The notes under the pieces are model-generated. The model did not search any database and was not told the DNA's origin. It worked only from the letters and a program-made list of their open reading frames with translations. A DNA stretch of 23,303 bases from IMG/VR virus record IMGVR_UViG_3300042111_000102, positions 1-23,303 of that record; one strand, 5' to 3'. A program made the translations under genes and the position numbers. Positions 18,200 through 23,303 of this stretch are shown here, in pieces. Source of the stretch: a virus. The first letter of the stretch is position 1. Every line of letters begins with the position of its first letter.

Positions 18200-18208
18200 T
18201 TATCCACA
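18200..18208 (+). promoter_or_regulatory. Perfect DnaA-box consensus TTATCCACA
   Basis: The 9-mer TTATCCACA equals the strong E. coli DnaA box. It lies in noncoding DNA right after the GNRA hairpin and ahead of an AT-rich stretch. A match by chance is quite possible in a window of this size, but the phage also encodes a DnaA domain IV-like protein (21746-22270). Confidence 0.35.
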
Positions 18209-18459: not shown

Positions 18460-18491
18460 TTGACTTTTGCATACCACTATATATGGTGTGC
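18460..18491 (+). promoter_or_regulatory. Promoter-like site overlapping a 23-base inverted repeat
   Basis: TTGACT (18460-18465) and TATGGT (18482-18487) are 16 bases apart. The -10 element lies within an inverted repeat: GCATACCA (18469-18476), spacer CTATATA, TGGTGTGC (18484-18491), paired over 8 positions with one G-T wobble. It could be an operator on a promoter, or a 5' hairpin hindering the ATG at 18494. Confidence 0.4.
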
Positions 18492-20767: not shown

Positions 20768-20910
20768 TGGAAAACAAAGGTTTATATTATAACATAAATA
20801 AACGCAGGAAAGCAGGAATATCTAGATCAAAAAAAGATTCAACGATATCTCCTGAAGCATATAGAAATATGAAAGCTGGCTTTCCTAAAAAGAAAAAAAC
20901 TATTCTTTAA
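20767..20910 (+). CDS. 47-residue conserved marine-phage protein with matching tail
   Basis: The product begins MENKGLYYNINKRRKAGISR and continues DSTISPEAYRNMKAGFP and KKKKTIL. The GLY-x-NI-x-KR start is shared with small proteins seen in many phages. Its last seven residues equal those of the previous gene. The TAA shares bases with the stop of the - strand HNH gene (TTAA at 20907-20910), so the two operons meet with no spacer. Function unknown. Confidence 0.65.
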   Translation: MENKGLYYNINKRRKAGISRSKKDSTISPEAYRNMKAGFPKKKKTIL

Positions 20911-21740
20911 TTACACATCCATTTTTTTCCAAATATTTTATCCATACTTTGAAAAGGTTTAAATTTATTTTTCTTAGCAGAATTTAATCCAGCAGGAATA
21001 ATTTTTAAATTATTATGCACATGCAATCCTGTTACAAACTTTCCTTGTAAAGGAATAACATGATCAACAGATACATTTCTTCCTTGTTTTCTTAATGTCT
21101 TTGCTTTTTTATATATATTTAACATTATAACTTTGTTATTCCACATTGGAGTTTGTTTTTGTGATATTAATCTTCTGTTAATAGCTTTTAAATTATAAAT
21201 CTCTTTATTTTTTTTATAATGTTCTTTGTTTCTTTTTTTATAATATTCTAAATTATTTTTATAATGTTCTCTAGAATTTCTTCTTCTTTTTAATTTATAT
21301 TTTTGATTATATATTTTATGGTAAGCTCTCATTTTAATGAGAAGTTTATCTCTATTTTTCCAATAATATTTTTTACGATGCTCTTTATAATATTCTGGAT
21401 TATTTATTCTTTTTAATCTTTCTCTTTCTCTAATAATTTTTTTATTTTTCTTTCTATATTGTCTTGCTTTTAATACATACTTATCTTTATTTTTATTATA
21501 TCTTTCTCTTTGTTTTAATATAATTATATTTCTATGTTTAGATCTATAGTCATTCCAATATTTTTTATATTTTTCAGGATTGTCTTTATATTTTTGTTCT
21601 CTTATTTTTAATAAACAAGACTTACATTCTCTTCTTGGAAAGAAGATATTTTTTTTTTGTGATTTGCTATACCAACTTCTGATCCAAAAAAATTTAATTA
21701 ATCTTTTTTTTTTACAAATAGAACATTCTTTTGCAAGCAT
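20907..21740 (-). CDS. HNH endonuclease with zinc-finger N-terminus and Tyr/Lys repeats
   Basis: A 277-residue HNH-family nuclease. The C-terminal catalytic part reads VDHVIPLQGKFVTGLHVHNNLKIIP, then a GLNSAKKNKF segment, the phage-type HNH core (DH, then HNNL, then N-x(n)-K-x-N). The N-terminus carries CSICKKKR and an RRECKSC pair, a zinc-knuckle seen in related enzymes. Between them are several units of about 17 residues rich in Tyr, Lys, Asn and Glu (NPEKYKKY, NKDKYVLK, NPEYYKEH, NLEYYKKR), likely a DNA-binding helix array. It could be a free-standing homing endonuclease beside the DnaA-like gene. The start is ATG 21740, five bases after the DnaA-like stop. Confidence 0.8.
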   Translation of the reverse strand: MLAKECSICKKKRLIKFFWIRSWYSKSQKKNIFFPRRECKSCLLKIREQKYKDNPEKYKKYWNDYRSKHRNIIILKQRERYNKNKDKYVLKARQYRKKNKKIIRERERLKRINNPEYYKEHRKKYYWKNRDKLLIKMRAYHKIYNQKYKLKRRRNSREHYKNNLEYYKKRNKEHYKKNKEIYNLKAINRRLISQKQTPMWNNKVIMLNIYKKAKTLRKQGRNVSVDHVIPLQGKFVTGLHVHNNLKIIPAGLNSAKKNKFKPFQSMDKIFGKKWMCN

Positions 21741-21745
21741 AAAAA

Positions 21746-22270
21746 CTATAACTCTTTATTTAGTTCCTCGTAAATATTCCAGATTTCATTCTGCGGTTTC
21801 CAATAACCTATCTTTAAATTTTTCTGGTTATGGTGATACATAATCGTTGTATGATTTCTCTTACCAAGAACATTACCAACGATTGTATAATTCATACTAG
21901 CTCTCTCAAGCATAATATTAATAGCAATAGTTCTTGCATATACAAACTTCTGCAATCTACTTGGAGATTTAATCTCATCAATAGAGACATCAAATCTTTT
22001 ACATATCTTCTCCAGGATATGATTAACCTCAGGGAATATACTAATTATATTAGCTTTCTTTGTTGGTTCTTTAATTGAATATAATTTCTTTTTAGAAATA
22101 ACAGAATAATATTTTGCTTTATATTTATTAACTTCAGTATTTAAAAAATCCCAAACAAGTCTGGACCCAGTCATAAAACCTTCTCTATATTCTTTATTGT
22201 TAATTGTTTTGGTTCTTCCTTTAATGGAGGTTTTTAATCTTATAATGGCTGCTTTAGTAAATTCACTCAT
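21746..22270 (-). CDS. DnaA domain IV-like DNA-binding protein
   Basis: A 174-residue protein. The C-terminal half matches the DNA-binding domain IV of DnaA: a VNHILEKICKRFDVSIDEIKS helix, a basic loop, YARTIAINIMLERA, and the signature GKRNHTTIMYHH (family GGRDHTTVLHA), with Asn replacing the usual Asp before HTT. No Walker A or B motif is present, so the AAA+ ATPase is missing. The N-terminal half is helical and unassigned. The start at 22270 follows a strong AAGGAGATATC, preferred over an upstream ATG at 22315 that would add a hydrophobic stretch from the overlapping gene. It may bind DnaA boxes to help phage replication or block host initiation. Confidence 0.75.
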   Translation of the reverse strand: MSEFTKAAIIRLKTSIKGRTKTINNKEYREGFMTGSRLVWDFLNTEVNKYKAKYYSVISKKKLYSIKEPTKKANIISIFPEVNHILEKICKRFDVSIDEIKSPSRLQKFVYARTIAINIMLERASMNYTIVGNVLGKRNHTTIMYHHNQKNLKIGYWKPQNEIWNIYEELNKEL

Positions 22271-22379
22271 TGATATCTCCTTGATCAAATTGAAATAAAA
22301 AATTAACAACATCATAAACTAATGATGCTGCTGCTATTAATATAAGAATCTGCATTAATGTTATTATATATGTAAGCAT
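22263..22379 (-). CDS. 38-residue membrane protein upstream of the DnaA-like gene
   Basis: A short gene with AGGAGATAAT just before ATG 22379. The product MLTYIITLMQILILIAAASL is one membrane span followed by VYDVVNFLFQFDQGDINE. Its stop lies inside the first codons of the DnaA-like gene (8-base overlap), so translation is probably coupled. Function unknown. Confidence 0.55.
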   Translation of the reverse strand: MLTYIITLMQILILIAAASLVYDVVNFLFQFDQGDINE

Positions 22380-22380
22380 A

Positions 22381-22467
22381 TTATCTCCTGTTGTTAAAAT
22401 ATATTAGTATCAAAATTAAGATTAAAATTATTTCATACCAAAATAAATCTTGTAATGTTTCAATCAT
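22381..22467 (-). CDS. 26-residue membrane micro-protein
   Basis: This very short gene starts within the end of the zinc-ribbon gene (ATGATTGA) with AGGA before its ATG. The product is MIETLQDLFWYEIILILILI followed by LIYFNNRR, a single span with a basic end. Its AGGAGATAA terminus doubles as the ribosome-binding site of the next gene. Tiny membrane proteins in phage early regions can affect host membrane enzymes; that is only a guess here. Confidence 0.45.
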   Translation of the reverse strand: MIETLQDLFWYEIILILILILIYFNNRR

Positions 22468-22660
22468 TTATTCCTACCCATTCATTATCACACTTAATGC
22501 ATCTAAAAGTTGGGTTTGGATCTGCTTGGATATCCTGTGTTGTAATGTTTGGAGTATACCATTCCTGAGTAAGCTCGCTTTGTAAATAAGCAAGATTTCT
22601 TTGGAATGCTAAGTATTGTACTCTAGAACTATTACAATCTGGACATCTAATTATTTTCAT
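22460..22660 (-). CDS. Zinc-ribbon protein
   Basis: A 66-residue protein with IRCPDCNSS near the start and FRCIKCDNEW near the end, a two-knuckle CxxC/CxxC zinc ribbon spaced by about 45 residues. The middle (QSELTQEWYTPNITTQDIQ) is polar. Zinc ribbons of this size in phage early genes often bind nucleic acid or RNA polymerase; the role here is unknown. It starts within the upstream gene (ATGA) and ends overlapping the micro-protein by eight bases. Confidence 0.68.
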   Translation of the reverse strand: MKIIRCPDCNSSRVQYLAFQRNLAYLQSELTQEWYTPNITTQDIQADPNPTFRCIKCDNEWVGIND

Positions 22661-22821
22661 TGAGTTACTTCTTTCTGTTTTAATTGATCATCATCAGCTT
22701 TAAATAACATCTCAACATATTGAGTGTAATAAAAGTCTGATAAAGTTGGATCATTTTCATCTAATGATTTTTGTAAGAATGATTGAGCAAGTACGTATTT
22801 ATCTTTAATAAGTTTATTCAT
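22657..22821 (-). CDS. 54-residue small early-region protein
   Basis: The product begins MNKLIKDKYVLAQSFLQKSL, continues DENDPTLSDFYYTQYVEMLF and ends DDDQLKQKEVTQ. It is acidic and helical, with no membrane span or cysteines. It starts and ends in ATGA overlaps with its neighbours, strong support that it is translated. No recognised domain. Confidence 0.55.
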   Translation of the reverse strand: MNKLIKDKYVLAQSFLQKSLDENDPTLSDFYYTQYVEMLFKADDDQLKQKEVTQ

Positions 22822-23027
22822 AGTGATGCTGTCTCCATTTCATATTGATCTTCATTAATTTTTAAATCTAAAAGATTTCTTCTATCTAGTTCTTGTTTAA
22901 TTGCTTTTAGATTAAGAAGAGCTGTTAAAGTTCTAACAGGCATGCTGTTATAATAATCATATTTATTTAATAGAATTTCATCTGATGATCTTCTAATTAA
23001 ATCTAATTGAGTTTTACTAATGATCAT
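22818..23027 (-). CDS. 69-residue small early-region protein
   Basis: A strong GGAGG lies six bases before ATG 23027. The product MIISKTQLDLIRRSSDEILL continues with a mainly helical, charged body (LLNLKAIKQELDRRNLLDLKI) ending acidic. It overlaps both neighbours by ATGA. No known domain; a small regulator or partner protein is possible. Confidence 0.6.
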   Translation of the reverse strand: MIISKTQLDLIRRSSDEILLNKYDYYNSMPVRTLTALLNLKAIKQELDRRNLLDLKINEDQYEMETASL

Positions 23028-23203
23028 AAAACCTCCGAATAATGAAAATCTTTTGAAGGAAAAACTGGTTCTGCTTTTGGGAACACAGCTAAAAGATTTT
23101 TTAATGCTTCTTCTTTAGTTGTTCCAGTTCTGCTTACCTGCACCTTTACAGAATAACCTGCATCTATAGCTCCAGTGCATTTAAACTTTTCAGTATTATT
23201 CAT
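23024..23203 (-). CDS. 59-residue small early-region protein
   Basis: The start at 23203 follows AGGAGGCAGC, a strong ribosome-binding site, and gives MNNTEKFKCTGAIDAGYSVK. An upstream ATG at 23251 would add 16 residues without such a site. The body has a strand-rich start and a helix TTKEEALKNLLAVFP, resembling a small alpha/beta fold. Ends ATGA-overlap the neighbours. Function unknown. Confidence 0.6.
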   Translation of the reverse strand: MNNTEKFKCTGAIDAGYSVKVQVSRTGTTKEEALKNLLAVFPKAEPVFPSKDFHYSEVL

Positions 23204-23295
23204 GCTGCCTCCTTTTGTTTGTTTAAAATTTTCCATCCAATATCTCTGCAAAGATAAATGGTTCCATCAACATCAACTATATCACCAACACTCAT
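23200..23295 (-). CDS. 31-residue protein at the window edge, possibly partial
   Basis: The frame reads MSVGDIVDVDGTIYLCRDIG then WKILNKQKEAA to a TGA that overlaps the next start (ATGA). The codons before this ATG are open to the window edge, so the true start may lie outside. The beta-rich beginning (VGDIVDVDG) looks like a small barrel. It is the first visible gene of the leftward operon. Confidence 0.5.
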   Translation of the reverse strand: MSVGDIVDVDGTIYLCRDIGWKILNKQKEAA

Positions 23296-23303
23296 TGAAG
23301 TGT

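Follow-up and report, generated by a model that had tools for sequence, protein, structure and literature searches.

A stand-alone DnaA domain IV protein in the early operon of HTVC010P-type phages and a separate O-like gene as their probable replication origin

SAR11 phages of the HTVC010P type rank among the most abundant viruses of surface waters. The DNA analyzed here (the window, 23,303 nt) is part of the genome of a podovirus of this type, a freshwater relative of the marine ones; its large tail protein is 67–68% identical to its counterparts in HTVC035P and HTVC010P. The minus strand of the window encodes a 174-aa protein, P0001, that combines an N-terminal helical part with the DNA-binding domain (domain IV) of the bacterial initiator DnaA. 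The features of the locus are listed below.

21746..22270, minus strand: gene of the stand-alone DnaA-domain-IV protein P0001
22034..22270, minus strand: N-terminal helical part (aa 1–79)
21749..22033, minus strand: domain IV proper, a helix-turn-helix DNA-binding domain (aa 80–174)
21845..21865, minus strand: signature GKRNHTT (aa 136–142)
22263..22379, minus strand: predicted hydrophobic peptide of 38 aa, whose ORF shares 8 nt with the start of the P0001 gene

The P0001 reading frame runs from an ATG at position 22270 to the end of its stop codon at 21746, and an AAGGAG ribosome-binding site is located upstream of the start at 22277–22282. A longer in-frame alternative begins with an ATG at 22315; the relatives use the codon at 22270 as their start, which is GTG in L004, L005, and L008. 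The close relatives are viral contigs (77–99% identity), and the dN/dS of the gene against its relatives was 0.05–0.17, indicating purifying selection. The occurrence of a DnaA domain IV gene at these coordinates is far beyond chance. The 38-aa peptide is absent in L013 and conserved in the freshwater clade, a label that denotes closeness to the HTVC010P-related phages that Chen et al. 2019 described from freshwater and not the sample origin of the contigs. Its overlap with the P0001 gene makes translational coupling possible. Another tiny hydrophobic ORF (approximately 28 aa) precedes that of the 38-aa peptide.

PF08299 (Bac_DnaA_C) matched P0001 at aa 83–148 (58.8 bits, E = 5.3e-16, cut-off of 31.5) and was the sole Pfam family above the cut-off. 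The AlphaFold2 model, for which a 41-sequence family alignment was the input, showed pLDDT >90 over aa 80–174, and it was superposed on the box-bound domain IV of E. coli (1J1V) with a Z score of 14.4 and an rmsd of 1.8 Å (92 residues aligned); for the M. tuberculosis counterpart (3PVP), the Z score was 13.6. The original prediction, which had assigned GKRNHTTIMYHH (aa 136–147) and the preceding helices to domain IV and had described a phage-encoded DnaA DNA-binding domain that stands alone, was thus borne out by both the profile and the predicted structure. Its statement that no AAA+ domain is present also held, as PF00308 (DnaA AAA+) was unmatched at E ≤ 0.1 in the window and in eight related phage records, with 14 of 14 controls positive. 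TIGR00362, which represents the whole DnaA protein, scored P0001 at 53.4 bits, below its cut-off of 343.9, and none of the PHROGs families matched P0001 at E ≤ 0.1. We rejected an identity as a RAYT (TnpA-REP) transposase because the Y1 transposase domain was not found in P0001 with Pfam. TnpA-REP transposases with Bac_DnaA_C resemble P0001 in re-using domain IV outside DnaA, but they carry it fused to Y1 (PMC6006769).

The description of P0001 as a truncated DnaA was correct only in part. P0001 shares the fold of E. coli domain IV, to which it is 16% identical, and lacks domains I–III of E. coli DnaA. However, the N-terminal part, modeled with low-to-middling confidence, is conserved in the 41-sequence alignment, in which F32 and G35 of a GF-x2-G motif are family-invariant, and domain IV is accompanied by a C-terminal W-x6-W helix (K150 and W157 invariant and W164 nearly invariant across the 41 relatives). 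Given these two elements, P0001 is not simply a truncated DnaA. The N-terminal part possibly serves in self-association.

In alignments, P0001 fits the pattern of the HTVC010P-type DnaA-C proteins (160–180 aa, invariant N-terminal F and G, domain IV, and W-x6-W). HTVC010P gp46, HTVC035P gp24, Greip gp42, and the product of Skadi-1 gene 28 resemble it in length and two-part architecture, in their place in the operon, and in the type of phage that carries them. The marine pelagiphage proteins are 25–34% identical to P0001, which differs from them in being one residue longer before the signature, in having Asn for Asp, and in belonging to the freshwater clade. In marine phages, GenBank labels these proteins 'DNA replication initiation (DnaA)', 'Bac_DnaA_C domain-containing protein', or 'DnaA-like protein', and in a predicted viral structure library the name 'DnaA C-terminal' is given to dozens of short phage proteins. 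Chen et al. 2019 reconstructed freshwater HTVC010P-related phages, inferred Fonsibacter (LD12) to be the host, and listed DnaA for every HTVC010P-related genome, the freshwater ones included (PMC6811365). Their freshwater 'DnaA', which we liken to P0001 by description only, comes from the same phage group and habitat type; the gene is listed there as DnaA only, without a domain, signature, or mechanism (PMC6811365). As the gene is a published core gene and dozens of DnaA-C proteins exist, a stand-alone phage DnaA domain IV is already known and not new as such. What is added here is its core membership in the nuclease/annealing-protein operon, the lack of a DnaA-box cluster or enrichment, and the in-gene iterons of a separate O-like gene.

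Stand-alone domain IV also occurs outside this phage group. Gp62 of Sulfitobacter phage phiGT1 is, like P0001, encoded in a phage early region; it differs from P0001 in lacking the N-terminal part and in its phage type. A 170-aa stand-alone domain IV gene was found in Aureimonas endophytica (L111:5734-6246, plus strand), where it adjoins a helicase gene and a primase-polymerase-like gene; this locus is likely a prophage.

The DnaA-IV gene was present in all of the contigs (36 of 36) that hold the O-like gene described below with approximately 5 kb or more of upstream sequence, and the order was always nuclease, single-strand annealing protein (SSAP), and, further on, DnaA-IV, on the same strand. 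DnaA-IV is thus a core DNA-metabolism gene, located downstream of the others in the early nuclease/single-strand-annealing operon and at its end. The nuclease and annealing genes of the present phage lie beyond the window; they are at the expected place in the related record G001. As in HTVC010P-type genomes generally, the DnaA-IV gene is on the early strand and adjoins the convergent late genes. A 277-aa endonuclease-VII/HNH-like gene (phrog_26577; window 20907-21740, minus strand) lies between the late genes and DnaA-IV. It was missing from all other freshwater loci fetched and is therefore probably a recent insertion.

Searches of nine phage records (controls positive) yielded neither a DnaB-type helicase nor a PolA-type polymerase, replicative genes that would be expected in a self-sufficient phage; the seven named records are complete genomes, and G001 and the window may be partial. 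Skadi-1 has no DNA polymerase and uses that of its host (PMC10504331). In the literature consulted on HTVC010P-type phages, we found no mechanism by which replication starts without a polymerase of their own.

No DnaA-box cluster was detected in any of 11 sequences, in a search that covers consensus-like sites and could miss an unlike single site. A DnaA-box origin in the phage was accordingly rejected. Neither enrichment nor significant depletion of boxes was found in the phage genomes under a third-order Markov model. Avoidance of boxes, as a first count (0.6–0.9x) had indicated, was discarded, as the ratio was 0.85 under that model and 17% of 300 permuted motifs were equally low. A perfect TTATCCACA at window position 18200 was rejected as a conserved site: it is shared by the closest relatives only and is not retained at the homologous place elsewhere, and the copy in G001 sits in a different intergenic gap. 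Autoregulation through an upstream box was dismissed because the region upstream of DnaA-IV codes for small hydrophobic peptides and holds no box, and the motif shared upstream of the marine DnaA-IV genes was only the conserved ribosome-binding region. A conserved DnaA-box-like motif was found neither in the phage genomes at large, nor upstream of the DnaA-IV gene, nor in the divergent early promoter.

A separate gene, annotated as 'putative transcriptional regulator' in marine phages, is the better candidate for an initiator. Representative copies are the following.

L021:15445-15969, plus strand: O-like/HTH_36 gene of the freshwater record G001 (HTH_36, 44 bits; PHROG replication-initiation and O-like matches)
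L025:4165-4845, minus strand: marine O-like gene with AGATAGCCGTT iterons at 22-bp spacing
L020:31592-32278, plus strand: marine O-like gene of HTVC010P with AGATAGCCGTT iterons at 22-bp spacing

The marine genes match the PHROG O-like families weakly. Of 46 non-redundant marine O-like genes (the IMG/VR loci among L211–L290), 42 contain an exact repeat of 10 nt or longer at 22-bp spacing, with the core AGATAGCCGTT; after 22, spacings of 54 (six genes) and 32 (five genes) were the most frequent, and these largely reflect a third copy. The freshwater gene has the same spacing with a different sequence, AGATGTGCCTCACAG, which is almost invariant at the DNA level and is followed by an A+T-rich stretch. 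When ten sequences were scanned for spaced repeats with exact matches, nearly all other spacings were divisible by three, as in protein repeats. As 22 is not a multiple of three, the iterons of the O-like gene are not a protein repeat.

The origin of phage lambda consists of iterons inside gene O, and the HTVC010P-type O-like gene likewise contains its 22-bp iterons. Judged from sequence, the O-like gene is probably both the origin and the initiator gene of HTVC010P-type phages. No iterons were found around the DnaA-IV gene (window 20900–23303), and its identity as a lambda O-like initiator was rejected because its own gene has no iterons and the separate O-like gene does. Since the DnaA-box cluster and enrichment are lacking and the iterons are in another gene, the DnaA-IV protein is probably not the origin-defining initiator. 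The recruitment of host replication proteins to the phage, which the original prediction had offered, has little support, and it is unlikely that the protein initiates replication at a phage origin by such recruitment. The label 'DNA replication initiation (DnaA)' in HTVC024P, 035P, 100P, 203P, and others, the presence of the gene in all members, and the lack of any other DnaA in the phage favor such a role; however, the AAA+ domain and the box cluster are absent, and the same genomes hold the better candidate with in-gene iterons. The common annotation of DnaA-IV as a replication initiator is thus probably wrong. Assigning the initiator role to the O-like gene in place of the DnaA-like protein provides a directly testable origin, and we regard the O-like gene as the more interesting result of the two.

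The DNA-contact residues bear on what the DnaA-IV protein does instead. Domain IV by itself suffices for specific DNA binding (PMC5835720), and the contact residues listed for DnaA are R399, P423, D433, H434, T435, and H439 (PMC7561715). By alignment, P0001 retains R399, R407, H434, T435, and T436 of E. coli DnaA and is therefore likely to bind DNA; it carries the substitutions D433N, P423T, H439Y, Q408T, and L438M. The suggestion that the usual Asp of the signature is Asn was confirmed: N139 corresponds to E. coli D433, and Asn is fixed in all freshwater relatives, whereas Asp is found in 36 of 36 more distant ones. In the box, D433 contacts the base pair at position 7, and the residue is described as highly conserved among bacteria (PMC8235120); an altered box preference is thus plausible. 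Among the 80 best cellular loci, a set selected with the [DN]HTT pattern and consisting nearly entirely of full-length DnaA genes, Asn was found in five, which argues that Asn is tolerated in real DnaA and is not simply a loss. As the 80 loci are nearly all full-length DnaA, a cellular source for the stand-alone gene was rejected. The Asn variant offers a natural test of the control of D433 over box preference.

The main action of the DnaA-IV protein might also lie in contacts with other proteins: it could titrate Hda, a binding partner of domain IV, and so raise ATP-DnaA and host replication capacity. Binding of Hda to domain IV appears as a title in the reference list of PMC5835720; nevertheless, the DNA-contact residues are conserved across the DnaA-IV family, and we consider this role improbable, the least likely of those weighed here.

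Our preferred reading, held tentatively and at somewhat less than even chances, is that the DnaA-IV protein acts as a regulator that binds DNA and contends with host DnaA for the DnaA boxes, in a phage that uses the O-like origin and the host polymerase. The protein would be made early and would bind DnaA-box-like sites on the host chromosome. As a domain IV without ATPase, with initiator and origin probably elsewhere, the protein would be unable to open DNA in the manner of DnaA or to form an ATP-DnaA filament. It would rival host DnaA at oriC and at DnaA-regulated promoters, so that host initiation would be held back and the host replisome drawn to the phage O-like origin. The steering or blocking of host initiation that the original prediction had also raised may accordingly occur. 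The Asn at the D433 position and the changes at P423 and H439 may relax or shift the preferred box. The lack of a box cluster or enrichment in the phage genomes makes a host target likelier than a phage DnaA-box origin. However, residues of the host type would be expected for competition at host boxes, yet the freshwater clade departs from it at D433, P423, and H439. The conservation of the N-terminal part, moreover, hints at a partner or at self-association, neither of which a simple decoy would require.

The same divergence of the base-contact residues from DnaA points to the phage's own DNA. With altered recognition, the DnaA-IV protein could act at one or a few sites, in a promoter or as an origin accessory, and time replication, recombination, or late transcription. 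This possibility, which we rate at around one in three and nearly as likely as competition at host boxes, is consistent with the universal linkage to the recombination operon, the co-occurrence with the O-like initiator, and the position of the gene next to the early/late boundary; the failure to find a DnaA-box-like motif in the genomes, the upstream region, or the divergent early promoter speaks against it. The slight preference for competition at host boxes rests on the failure to find phage sites and on the consideration that a block on host initiation would suit a phage dependent on the host replisome.

A stand-alone LexA DNA-binding domain (71 aa; PF01726, 50.8 bits; L021:11226-11441, minus strand) was observed outside the window. 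It lacks the protease part, shares the early operon with the DnaA-IV gene, and is conserved in the freshwater clade, forming a freshwater-specific parallel to the DnaA-IV protein. Pelagibacter HTCC1062 carries lexA (PMC12753301). A more speculative extension of competition at host boxes, to which we give a low probability, is a two-part takeover in which the O-like initiator would fire the in-gene iteron origin with the host polymerase and the DnaA-IV decoy would silence the host origin, and in freshwater members the LexA domain would be a second decoy of the same design.

Three further elements were observed. In HTVC010P (L020, positions 627–675), an exact GGACTCCCTTA repeat with 32-bp spacing occupies the gap before the terminase genes, and its second copy runs into a perfect TTATCCACA. 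By eye, a promoter-like stretch, TTGACT-N17-TATAT, is conserved between the window (18460–18490) and the corresponding position in relatives; it precedes the late small-gene/peptidase cluster, and a conserved GGTGGC...GCCACC hairpin lies approximately 280 bp upstream of it.
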